Position numbers and translations under genes: made by a program. The notes beneath the pieces are model-generated. The model saw nothing but the letters and a program-made list of their open reading frames with translations, had not been told where the DNA came from and ran no database searches. A stretch of 64,000 nt of DNA from Paenibacillaceae bacterium. GTDB lineage: Bacteria > Bacillota > Clostridia > Lachnospirales > Lachnospiraceae. The DNA lies in contig SVDU01000013.1 of assembly GCA_015057705.1 (NCBI GenBank), positions 62,001 through 126,000 on the forward strand. Reading direction: 5' to 3'. Position 1 is the first letter of the stretch. Each line of letters opens with the position of its first letter. This document shows positions 6,370 through 10,324 of this stretch, in pieces.

Positions 6370-7374
6370 TTAGTATCGGCCATTAATAGCTCCAGCCTTC
6401 TTCTTAATTCTGATATCATCTCCATATAAAGGAATTACCGTATATCGGCTGATCAGCCTGGAAGTAACACGTTCAGTATATCGATCCCTCAGTTCATTAA
6501 TGGAATGATTGGTAGATATAATGGTTGACTTTGAAGAATTAAGCCGCTCGTTAATACAGTAAAATAGTTCGGAAGAGGTAAAACTGTTATTTAACTCTGT
6601 TCCCAGATCATCAATGATTAAAAGATCACAGTCCAGAATGTACTGATACATTCCTTTCATATCGTCTTCATCCTGATAATCAAACCGGTTTTTGGAAAAT
6701 ACCTCAAAGAGATCGTTAGCGGATAAATAGATCACGGAGTAAAACTTATCGATCAGCTCTTTGGCAATACAATTGGTTAAAAATGTCTTTCCTACTCCTG
6801 TAGGACCTGTAAACAACAAATTTCCATGTTCATTCGGCAGGTTTTTTACAAAACTGCGGCAGGTTTCCGTTACCTGCATCATATACTGCTTCACTGTCCG
6901 GTTTAAAACCGGCATTACTTTTGTATCATCAAAATATTCATAAGAAAATGTATTAAAATTCTCCACTGCAATGATCTGCTCAATGTTGGATTGTGCGTAT
7001 AAATATTTCATCTCTGACTGTCGGAAACAGTGGCACTTTATGCCTTCGGAATACCCCGTATCTTTACAGTCCGCACACAGGTACTGCATCTCCATAAAAT
7101 CAACGGTATATCCGGCAGACTTTAAAAGAACCGCCTTTTGTTCCCTCAGATCTGCAATTTCCTCTCTCAGCTCTTTTAAGGCTTGTTTATCCCCATCCAA
7201 AAGCCTGCGGGCGCAGGAGACTGCTTTTGTACTGATGGAATCATCAAGTTCCTTTATCACAGGTATTTTATTATATACTTGCGCAATCCGCTTTTCCTGT
7301 TCATGCCGGTTCTTTAACTGCTGCTGTCCGTAAGCCCGCATGATGGCATCATACTGTGAATTGCTCAGTGCCAT
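6370..7374 (-). CDS. dnaC: DnaC/DnaI-type helicase loader ATPase
   Basis: A 334-residue AAA+ ATPase that loads the replicative helicase at origins or stalled forks. Walker A is FTGPTGVGKTFL at ~190-201 and Walker B is LLIIDDLGTE at ~252-261, with a sensor-1 segment TIISTNHS near 285. Before the AAA+ core is a cysteine cluster CADCKDTG...CHC (~98-114), like the zinc-binding N-terminal domain of DnaI. The gene follows dnaD by 33 bases, the usual Firmicute arrangement for phage-type and chromosomal loader pairs. The intact operon next to murC suggests a chromosomal gene rather than a prophage one. Confidence 0.9.
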   Translation of the reverse strand: MALSNSQYDAIMRAYGQQQLKNRHEQEKRIAQVYNKIPVIKELDDSISTKAVSCARRLLDGDKQALKELREEIADLREQKAVLLKSAGYTVDFMEMQYLCADCKDTGYSEGIKCHCFRQSEMKYLYAQSNIEQIIAVENFNTFSYEYFDDTKVMPVLNRTVKQYMMQVTETCRSFVKNLPNEHGNLLFTGPTGVGKTFLTNCIAKELIDKFYSVIYLSANDLFEVFSKNRFDYQDEDDMKGMYQYILDCDLLIIDDLGTELNNSFTSSELFYCINERLNSSKSTIISTNHSINELRDRYTERVTSRLISRYTVIPLYGDDIRIKKKAGAINGRY

Positions 7375-7407: not shown

Positions 7408-8442
7408 TTACTTAAACTCTGTCAGCTGTTCAAGAATAAGAGCATCATAATCAATCTCTCTTTGAGGAAAGTTCTGAAACTGGTTCTGTCCGTTCTTCCC
7501 TTTTGCGCCGGCTGATGCCTTCGTACCTTTATCTCCGCTGCTTTTTTTCCGGTCTGCGTGCTGCTCGTCCAGTTTTCGTATGTCCTCCATCGTACGGGCT
7601 CCTGCTTTCTTCCAACCTTCTATAATCTTGTCCGTATAAGGAAAACTGGGAGAATGTGTCGCAGTCAGAGTCCTGCTGCAGGCCTCAATAACCAGCTCTT
7701 TGGTAAATCCGTAAGTACGGAACCACTTATCCATGTATTCCCGTTCTGAATCTCCGGGATTACGGTCGCTCAGCCCAAATGCTCTCATGACTGCAAAGGA
7801 ATCCTTAGAAAATGTAAGTGCATTATTCTTAGCGTCATCAACTGTCTTAAAACCCTTTTCGTGCCAGCTAATTGCCACTGTCTCGATATATCGAATGCTG
7901 GTATGACCACCCTGTACACAATATTCCACAACATACTCTAAAAGCTCTGCAGGCATATGAAGACCATCATACAGATACGCAAATACCTCACATTCTCTCT
8001 GAGTGAAAACTTTATTCATATATTTTTGGGCAATATAAAGCAATTGAGAAAAATCCTCATCTCCTGCCAGCCCGCTGATCTGATCGGGAGTGTAGGATTT
8101 TCTGCTTGCAGATGGTACAGATATCTCCTTTTTCACTGCTTCTGCCGGGCGCCCGGAACATGCAGTCTCCGAAACAGCCGGAGAAACCTCCGGTTTTGAG
8201 ACTGCCGCCTCGCTTAATACTCCCGCTTTTTTCCAATAGGATAAGGCACGGGCTACATCTGCCTCTGTATGGTTTAAGGCATCAGCAATCATGGAAACAG
8301 TAACCTCTTCCCCTTCATGACGCATCAGAAACAGATATTCTTTTATGTATTCACCATTGGCCGAAGCCATAAAATCGTCTATGAATTGATTAGATATTAT
8401 CGTACCATTGATCTTAAAACTGCTCTTAAAGTTCACCGCCAT
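7408..8442 (-). CDS. dnaD: DnaD domain replication initiation protein
   Basis: A 344-residue protein of the DnaD/DnaB primosome family, which remodels DNA and helps recruit the DnaC-type loader. Residues ~25-75 form a winged helix (EVTVSMIADALNHTEADVARALSYWKK in part); two DnaD-like C-terminal helical repeats follow at ~135-205 and ~220-300, the second with the YMDKWFRTYGF segment resembling the family YxxxWxxxxGF motif. A polar linker of ~35 residues (100-133) separates the parts. Ribosome-binding site AAGGTGAGGTT precedes the ATG. Its upstream region is packed with DnaA boxes, so expression may follow DnaA activity (inference). Confidence 0.85.
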   Translation of the reverse strand: MAVNFKSSFKINGTIISNQFIDDFMASANGEYIKEYLFLMRHEGEEVTVSMIADALNHTEADVARALSYWKKAGVLSEAAVSKPEVSPAVSETACSGRPAEAVKKEISVPSASRKSYTPDQISGLAGDEDFSQLLYIAQKYMNKVFTQRECEVFAYLYDGLHMPAELLEYVVEYCVQGGHTSIRYIETVAISWHEKGFKTVDDAKNNALTFSKDSFAVMRAFGLSDRNPGDSEREYMDKWFRTYGFTKELVIEACSRTLTATHSPSFPYTDKIIEGWKKAGARTMEDIRKLDEQHADRKKSSGDKGTKASAGAKGKNGQNQFQNFPQREIDYDALILEQLTEFK

Positions 8443-8505
8443 AACCTCACCTTTTTATCATGTTCCTATCATACCACAGGTCTTTCCAAAAGAAAATAGG
8501 GGCAG

Positions 8506-8578
8506 TTATCCACTAAATCAATTGTGGATATTGTGGATAATGTGGAAACCAAGTATACATAATCTTAGTTTATCCACT
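8506..8578. promoter_or_regulatory. DnaA-box cluster upstream of dnaD
   Basis: Against the 9-mer TTATCCACA I find: 8506-8514 forward with one mismatch; 8523-8531 reverse with one mismatch; 8532-8540 reverse, perfect; 8541-8549 reverse with two mismatches; 8570-8578 forward with one mismatch. Three reverse boxes abut without spacers. Two more perfect reverse boxes (8688-8696 and 8697-8705) lie at the murC end, separated by an AT-rich stretch. DnaA binding here is inferred from the motif. Confidence 0.75.
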
Positions 8579-8644
8579 ATGATCCTGTTGAATTGCTGAT
8601 AAAATCGAGATTTTCTAAATTGTGAGACGATAATTTATGTAAAT

Positions 8645-8694
8645 TAAAAAATCCACATAGTTTCTTAACATAAAATGTTGAAAACTATGTGGAT
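8645..8694 (-). terminator. Intrinsic terminator of murC, built from DnaA-box-like arms
   Basis: ATCCACATAGTTT (8651-8663) and AAACTATGTGGAT (8682-8694) are perfect complements, with more pairing inside (TTAACAT/ATGTTGA). Read on the minus strand the stem is followed at once by TTTTTT (8650-8645). It closes the murC transcript 12 bases after the stop codon. Confidence 0.8.
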
Positions 8695-8705
8695 AATGTG
8701 GATAA

Positions 8706-10085
8706 CTATAAGCCCAACAGCTTTTCTCCCACTTTTACAATGTCTCCGGCACCCATAGTTATCAACAAATCACCGTGTATACAATTTTCTAAAATAAATG
8801 TTTCAATCTCATCAAACGAGGTAATGTAATGCGCTTTTACACCTTTTTTCTCGATTCTCTCCACGATATCTGCAGAGCTGATACCCAGATTGTCGGTTTC
8901 TCTTGCTGCATAAATCTCTGCAAGAATTACCTCATCTGCCAGAGACAGCGCATCTGCAAAGTCGTCAAGAAATGCCTTTGTACGTGTATAAGTATGGGGT
9001 TGGAAAACAACCCACAGTTTTTTGTGTGGATAATGCTGTGCTGTGCTTAAGGTCGCACGGATCTCCTGTGGATGATGGGCATAATCATCAATAATGGTCA
9101 CACCTCCCAGTTCGCCCTTCTTTTCAAAGCGCCTGTTGGTGCCCGTAAAATGTTTCAGTCCCTTCTTCACCTGATCCAATGATATTCCCAGTTCTGCGCA
9201 TACGGCTGCTGCAGCCAGGGAGTTATACACATTATGTTCTCCTGGTACTCCAAGAGTTACTGTATCCACAACAGAGCCGTCAATCTTTAAATGATAGGTG
9301 GCTCTTGCCAGATCATCAAACGCAATCCCTTCCACCTGATATCTGCTTCCGTCTTTCTTACCAAAAGTAATCACCTTACATGGAAGATCCCGAACGATCT
9401 CCTCAATATTTTCGATGTCATTGTTAATCACCAGAAGTCCGTCAGCAGGAAGCTTCTGGGCAAACAGACGGAATGAATTACGAATATCCTTGATATCTTT
9501 AAAGAAATCAAGATGATCTGCTTCTATATTTAAAATAATCTCCACTGTTGGATAAAAGGAAAGAAAACTATTGGTATATTCACAGGCCTCAGTCACAAAA
9601 AGTTCCGGACCGCCTACACGAATGTTCCCTCCTATAGAATTTAATATTCCGCCTACAGAAATAGTGGGGTCTGCATCCGCACAGAGAAGAACCTCTGTAA
9701 TCATAGAGGTTGTGGTAGTCTTTCCGTGAGTACCCGAAATAGCAATCGCATTCTCATAATTCTTCATCATCTGACCAAGAAGTTCTGCTCTGCTTAAAAT
9801 TGGAAGTCCCTGTTCTTTTGCAGCCATAAGCTCCGGATTGTCAGAATGTACAGCAGCCGTATAAACCACCACATCGATTCCTTCTGTAATATTTTCTGCG
9901 CGCTGTCCGTACACAATTTTTGCGCCTTTTGCTTCCAGGTGACGTGTCAGCTCCGATTCATGAGAATCTGATCCGGTCACCGAAAATCCCTCATCCATGA
10001 GAATCTCAGCCAGGCCGCTCATGCTGATTCCTCCAATACCGATAAAATGAACTGCCTGTGGTTTATGAAAATCAATCTGATACAT
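8706..10085 (-). CDS. murC: UDP-N-acetylmuramate--L-alanine ligase
   Basis: Adds the first residue, L-alanine, to UDP-MurNAc with ATP in cytosolic peptidoglycan precursor synthesis. At 459 residues it is of normal length. The N-terminal nucleotide-binding segment HFIGIGGISMSGLAEIL (13-29) is the MurC signature; the ATP loop is SGTHGKTTTTSMI at ~116-128; the central domain has EACEYTNSFL and EADHLDFF; and DDYAHHPQEI at ~350 marks the C-terminal domain. Nothing is missing. It is transcribed alone, from a promoter at about 10140-10168 to the terminator at 8645-8694. Confidence 0.96.
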   Translation of the reverse strand: MYQIDFHKPQAVHFIGIGGISMSGLAEILMDEGFSVTGSDSHESELTRHLEAKGAKIVYGQRAENITEGIDVVVYTAAVHSDNPELMAAKEQGLPILSRAELLGQMMKNYENAIAISGTHGKTTTTSMITEVLLCADADPTISVGGILNSIGGNIRVGGPELFVTEACEYTNSFLSFYPTVEIILNIEADHLDFFKDIKDIRNSFRLFAQKLPADGLLVINNDIENIEEIVRDLPCKVITFGKKDGSRYQVEGIAFDDLARATYHLKIDGSVVDTVTLGVPGEHNVYNSLAAAAVCAELGISLDQVKKGLKHFTGTNRRFEKKGELGGVTIIDDYAHHPQEIRATLSTAQHYPHKKLWVVFQPHTYTRTKAFLDDFADALSLADEVILAEIYAARETDNLGISSADIVERIEKKGVKAHYITSFDEIETFILENCIHGDLLITMGAGDIVKVGEKLLGL

Positions 10086-10292: not shown

Positions 10293-10324
10293 GCACCTTA
10301 CAGATTCTATGACCTGTAAAGTGC
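10293..10324 (-). terminator. Intrinsic terminator of the 10343-11236 gene
   Basis: GCACTTTACAG and CTGTAAGGTGC pair around a ten-base loop; on the minus strand TTTTTTT follows within two bases. It lies 19 bases past the gene's stop codon. Confidence 0.8.

Follow-up and report, generated by a model that had tools for sequence, protein, structure and literature searches.

DnaA is a known transcription factor (PMC8203912, PMC4447404), and several described systems share features with the locus analysed here. The B. subtilis sda promoter, which is activated by DnaA, likewise carries a box cluster upstream of a promoter outside oriC and is regulated directly by DnaA, but its target is a sporulation inhibitor where the target here is a replication loader (PMC4447404). 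Neither dnaD nor dnaB is among the high-affinity DnaA regions of B. subtilis named in the passages covered from that paper (PMC4447404). The DnaA-box clusters (DBCs) of B. subtilis are likewise dense, outside oriC and origin-proximal, and initiation was strongly affected only when six clusters outside oriC were removed (PMC5295017). Unlike those DBCs, the present locus has a conserved spacing between boxes and promoter and is in most cases associated with helicase-loader genes. For E. coli, titration near the origin has been argued (PMC12371093), and DnaA favours close pairs of boxes, as in the double DnaA box (PMC11317965); a 3-bp spacer occurs here too, in the window before a degenerate box, but the main spacer here is 0 bp, with runs of 2-4 boxes. 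Caulobacter DnaA likewise acts as a transcription factor on a gene of a later initiation step, dnaB (cited in PMC8203912), although this gene encodes the replicative helicase and not the loader and belongs to another phylum; the likeness concerns the target gene. Control of replication initiation in Clostridia is little known, and a paper on the C. difficile oriC states that how this species regulates DnaA activity is unknown (PMC7561715). Among the titles and abstract openings searched, with subscription papers mostly outside the search, we found none on DnaA boxes upstream of dnaD in Lachnospiraceae.

The locus lies in a stretch of 64 kb (hereafter the window) from a source genome of 4.53 Mb in 36 contigs, in which dnaA is on another contig than the array. 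The gene order on the minus strand is murC, a 263-bp gap, a DnaD-domain gene and a DnaC/DnaI-type AAA+ ATPase gene. The upstream neighbour murC (8706..10085, minus strand; UDP-N-acetylmuramate--L-alanine ligase) is an ORF matching TIGR01082 with E=4.5e-146, and the dnaD-like replication initiation gene (7408..8442, minus strand) matches PF07261 (E=5e-36) and TIGR01446 (DnaD_dom). The AAA+ helicase-loader gene follows dnaD by 33 bp (6370..7374, minus strand; NF005304, PF01695, PF00308); its match to NF005304 (ATP-binding protein) has E=1.9e-115, and there are also matches to the DnaC and DnaI models, with scores under the cut-offs. A terminator-like hairpin of 13 pairs is also present upstream of murC, at 10293-10324 on the minus strand.

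The preliminary description of this DNA had reported a DnaA-box cluster between murC and dnaD, and every box that it listed is present: three perfect TTATCCACA boxes (8532-8540, 8688-8696 and 8697-8705, minus strand) and three one-mismatch boxes (8506-8514, plus; 8523-8531, minus; 8570-8578, plus) in the 263-bp gap, with 8688/8697 and 8523/8532 abutting head to tail without a spacer, as it had also stated. The boxes form two arrays. In array A, perfect box 1 (8697..8705, minus strand) directly follows the murC stop codon, perfect box 2 (8688..8696, minus strand) abuts box 1 and forms part of the 5' arm of the terminator stem that follows murC, and a degenerate third box with 2 mismatches, TTTTCAACA (8676..8684, minus strand), stands 3 bp after box 2. 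In array B, a 2-mismatch box, GTTTCCACA (8541-8549), precedes the perfect box (8532..8540, minus strand), which itself abuts the promoter-proximal box ATATCCACA (8523..8531, minus strand), 49 bp from the -10 hexamer. The sequence TTATCCACT occurs twice on the plus strand, as a one-mismatch box between arrays A and B that is found in 9/24 genus loci (8570..8578) and as an inverted box between array B and the promoter (8506..8514). Two boxes are additional to those described earlier, the murC-internal box TTATCAACA at the 3' end of murC (8759..8767, plus strand) and a further perfect box deeper in murC (9025-9033).

The dnaD promoter is predicted by motif match from a -10 hexamer TATGAT with an extended-10 TG (TGGTATGAT; 8468..8473, minus strand). 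At the -35 place stands CTATTTTCTTTT (8488..8499, minus strand), an element conserved by position-wise information with a poor match to TTGACA; being kept across genera, it may be either an unusual -35 or the site of another protein. Seven genus genomes (L018, L020, L021, L023, L024, L027, L029) carry an inverted-repeat-like insertion of 50-150 bp between the -10 and the dnaD start.

The boxes in the gap are above chance, since none of 2000 dinucleotide shuffles contained more than one perfect box, against the 3 observed in 263 bp. Across the 64 kb, 6 perfect boxes are found against 0.70 expected from shuffles (maximum 3), and the whole 4.53-Mb genome contains 112, against 34 for the reversed control motif. 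Box density at the locus is thus higher than the genome background. In the same genome, the dnaA-dnaN intergenic region holds 2 perfect and 1 one-mismatch boxes in 231 bp, and the DNA upstream of dnaA holds 1 perfect and 6 one-mismatch boxes in 455 bp; with 3 + 3 in 263 bp, the array is at or above oriC in density.

Conservation was analysed among relatives. A dnaD gene was matched in 112/116 genomes, source genome included, upstream DNA was read for 110 dnaD loci (30 + 80; G088 and G095 left out), and counts were made on the 108 of them whose upstream DNA reached 300 bp (24 from the genus, 45 from the family and 39 from the order). All 24 genus loci have two or more perfect boxes in the 500 bp preceding dnaD, as do 27 of the 45 family loci and 13 of the 39 order loci. 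The density of perfect boxes in these 500 bp is 6.5, 4.27 and 2.26 per kb for genus, family and order; the reversed motif occurs 0, 1 and 0 times upstream of dnaD in the same 108 loci, and murC coding DNA contains 0, 0.07 and 0.08 perfect boxes per kb, respectively. A contiguous pair, each box having at most one mismatch, is present in 79/108 loci. In a set of named organisms, which overlaps with the 116-genome set, at least two perfect boxes were observed in 72/78 dnaD loci, taken from the best 80 of 574 matches after 2 of the 80 loci were dropped as too short.

The murC-internal box is also kept in relatives. A forward box lies 62 bp from it in 24 cases from the genus, 20 from the family and 11 from the order. 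Its Ile codon is ATA in 33/40 among 43 non-genus loci, and is thus kept at synonymous positions, ATA being used at three other Ile positions of the same murC stretch in 6/35, 6/27 and 5/19 in those loci. This codon count covers 43/94 murC-upstream loci, the 24 genus loci having been excluded deliberately and 27 lost to the strict motif. When 391 genomes of the class were searched blindly for the murC box with a perfect box at 62 bp, 6 matches were obtained: 5 at the murC end, all from the 16 genomes of the family that the search covered (the source genome among them), and 1 at another place. With the reversed control there was 1 match.

The array does not always follow dnaD. Among 13 genomes checked in which dnaD is not after murC, boxes are kept at the murC end in 3 (G081, G100 and G111, those of G111 being one-mismatch only), followed in G081 and G100 by a gene that we take, from reading its sequence, to be efp-like. 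No perfect box is found near dnaD in 14/16 loci without a detected upstream murC, some of which have short upstream DNA, nor in 5/5 loci whose murC-dnaD gap is shorter than 80 bp. Since these loci have no perfect box there and the three genomes above keep boxes at the murC end, the array marks a spaced murC-dnaD junction and not dnaD as such. In G054, another gene lies between array A and dnaD and the tandem pair follows murC; in G075, murC adjoins dnaD, though this genome is absent from the adjacency count.

We then considered tandem boxes genome-wide. The exact 18-mer made of two contiguous perfect boxes occurs in 62/116 genomes (reversed control, 0) at 124 places: 68 are at most 2 kb upstream of dnaD, counting G054 with its intervening gene, 40 are at most 2 kb upstream of hpf, and 16 are elsewhere. 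Four of these 16 were identified, namely 2 in G040 and 1 in G103 upstream of dnaA, and 1 in G094 upstream of hpf, at about 2.6 kb. A match to hpf is present in 108 genomes, and in 28 of the 30 loci that match best, two or more perfect boxes stand upstream of the gene. The source genome itself contains a second contiguous DnaA-box array, between the divergent secA and hpf (G000:C25:16546-16675; L004 6547-6674).

The position of the boxes relative to the predicted promoter was then measured. Within the genus, 16/24 loci have 49 bp between the end of array B and the -10, and this distance is kept in 6/7 genus loci with the 50-150 bp insertion before the ATG. In 7/24 genus loci, array B is not tandem by the rule used because its second box is too degenerate, so that the measured distance, 213 bp, runs from array A; in 1/24 no -10 was recognised. 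Pooling the sets gave 185 loci with 500 bp upstream, of which 129 have a tandem and an extended -10, reduced to 65 by thinning to dissimilar loci. The last tandem lies within 100 bp of the -10 in 46/65 thinned loci, and 19/65 do not fit. The distances fall at 46-50 bp (10 loci), 58-60 (6), 66-72 (21), 77-81 (8) and 88 (1); the first four clusters have means of 48.8, 58.67, 68.95 and 79.0, with a slope of 10.09 bp per step. The Rayleigh R of these distances is 0.74 at a 10-bp period and 0.49 at 9 bp, and a jitter null reached a maximum R of 0.48 in 10000 sets against the 0.74 observed, the genomes being related and not independent, so that every P value is weakened. Measured from the nearest perfect box (50 thinned loci), R peaks at 0.59 at 9.5 bp and is 0.57 at 10 bp (null at most 0.46), and when a single mismatch is allowed in the nearest box (67 loci) it peaks at 0.58 at 10 bp (null at most 0.43). 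In contrast, the -10-to-ATG distance has no stepping of about 10 bp in the thinned loci (R at most 0.17). The 9-bp box unit could cause part of the stepping; a 9-bp register is unlikely to be its sole cause, the cluster means fitting about 10 bp better than 9.

Array A behaves differently from this pattern. Its distance to the -10 has no clear periodicity (R at most 0.41, 29 loci), and the start-to-start distance from A to B, which is 162-167 bp in 17/17 genus loci with two tandem runs, falls in this range in only 11/26 non-genus loci. Strict phasing between A and B was thus rejected, and we do not claim a rigid DNA loop because the A-B spacing is loose outside the genus and the A-to-promoter distance is not periodic.

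The boxes of array B, contiguous or 3-bp-spaced, are mostly found at distances stepped by about 10 bp upstream of a conserved extended -10 with a poor -35. The best -35 match is 3 or 4 of 6 in 57/65 loci, yet above shuffled. Many activator-dependent promoters have a poor -35, and a protein contacting RNA polymerase from one face would need its distances to change by whole helical turns, one per step. As would be expected of a member of a DnaA regulon, the locus has consensus boxes at a promoter above chance, positioned relative to that promoter and kept in relatives (46/65 thinned loci). The earlier suggestion that DnaA may control the genes for its own loading factors gains support from the conservation, from the spacing being set to the promoter and not to the start codon, and from the periodicity of about 10 bp. 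We consider it likely, judging from the sequence, that the array is a DnaA operator of the promoter of dnaD-dnaC (helicase loader), with regulation of some sign by DnaA. Given such regulation, activation seems the reasonably probable sign, and contact-dependent repression also fits the phasing.

Another explanation could be that the array is an origin-proximal titration cluster that soaks up DnaA and delays re-initiation, as proposed for the B. subtilis clusters, its neighbour genes being incidental. As with titrating clusters, these boxes are grouped outside oriC; dnaD is 103-171 kb from dnaA in the 10 genus genomes with both genes on one contig (G024 taken as circular), the end of murC still carries boxes in the 3/13 genomes mentioned above with dnaD elsewhere, and in B. 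subtilis the loss of six clusters leads to early initiation (PMC5295017). However, titration needs no fixed promoter spacing, and the spacing is stepped in most loci; boxes also remain where dnaD is far from dnaA (about 471 kb in G113), and in G002 a distance of about 610 kb separates dnaA from the second array, the one at hpf. Titration as the whole explanation is thus unlikely, and the array may titrate DnaA as a side effect of its role as an operator.

The spacing of the boxes among themselves bears on whether they are bound by DnaA or by some other regulator recognising a 9-bp direct repeat. Between same-strand boxes at most 40 bp apart in the 65 thinned loci, a set chosen for having a 9-bp pair, the commonest spacings are 9 bp (115 cases) and 12 bp (31); sums of 9 and 12 are also frequent, with 18 bp (21) and 21 bp (28), and other distances are rare. 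In 38 cases in these loci, the last box of a run is followed at 12 bp by a box with two mismatches or fewer. The predominance of 0-bp over 3-bp spacers, 115 cases against 31 in a set so chosen, would suit another regulator, as E. coli DnaA prefers spacers of 2-3 bp (PMC11317965). But the repeated unit matches the DnaA-box consensus exactly, contiguous copies are also located upstream of dnaA in G040 and G103, and the 3-bp spacer is the second preferred nearest distance: the 12-bp register, corresponding to the E. coli-type spacer of 2-3 bp, is the second commonest in the relatives, the 3-bp-spaced third box of the window being degenerate. We consider binding by such a regulator quite improbable.

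The preliminary description had placed one perfect box within the murC terminator. This is the case: in the terminator (8646..8694, minus strand), box 2 is the basis of a perfect stem of 13 bp (8651-8663/8682-8694), after which comes a T run, and the fold z-score is -3.06. A terminator-like hairpin with a DnaA box follows murC in 24/24 genus and 23/42 family loci, and in 0/23 order loci. Box-containing murC terminator stems are present in many Lachnospiraceae, with stem extensions that differ among genera. It could be argued from the box in the stem in these genus and family loci, and from the fold z-score, that the TGTGGATAA repeats are kept as terminator stems, at the RNA level, and not for DnaA. 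Yet the boxes conserved outside the stem include those of array B, the one in murC and box 1, and none of the 23 order loci has a box-overlapping terminator when 13/39 order loci keep at least two perfect boxes. Boxes thus remain where the overlapping terminator is absent, so that, with the density above background, neither of the two outcomes named as refuting the preliminary description was observed. A pure terminator or RNA element is rejected for the whole array; this reading, slightly less probable again than another regulator, can hold for box 2 only. The terminator counts indicate that box 2 doubles as RNA structure and that the other boxes are kept without it, so that it is possible that one sequence serves twice, as DNA operator and as RNA terminator.

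A secondary replication origin, also raised in the preliminary description, or an ancestral one, apparently favoured by dense DnaA boxes beside helicase-loader genes at a density at or above that of oriC, is hardly credible and is rejected because, in the 320 kb read of G002 (a single contig), the cumulative GC-skew minimum is at 3,607,316, beside dnaA, with no sign change at the array and dnaD 109 kb from dnaA in this one genome, and because the dnaA-dnaN region contains a DnaA-trio, TAGTAGTAG, whereas no trio (TA[GA]) is found in the array and one occurs in only 2/65 relatives, the same as in the shuffled control.

Returning to the operator, we propose that DnaA would bind array B cooperatively and that the bound DnaA would touch RNA polymerase from one DNA face, most likely as an activator, so that the supply of helicase-loading proteins would depend on how much (ATP-)DnaA is available. 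Insulation of dnaD from murC read-through would come from array A together with the terminator, and array A may in addition contribute cooperativity or looping. A more specific model, which we hold tentatively and at rather less than even chances, is that the DnaA of Lachnospirales acts as a class-I-like activator, from one helix face and at stepped distances, on the operon of its own downstream loaders, and perhaps on hpf, in a feed-forward circuit whose operator would be a contiguous 9-bp/12-bp array, with its upstream half doubling as the murC terminator and reaching into murC coding DNA. As far as sequence comparison can tell, the locus is probably a conserved promoter of the helicase-loader operon that is activated by DnaA. 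If this is true, the initiator itself determines how much of its loaders is made, an arrangement widely kept in Lachnospiraceae, and the box grammar described here could be used to look for DnaA regulons in the order, with hpf as a second candidate.
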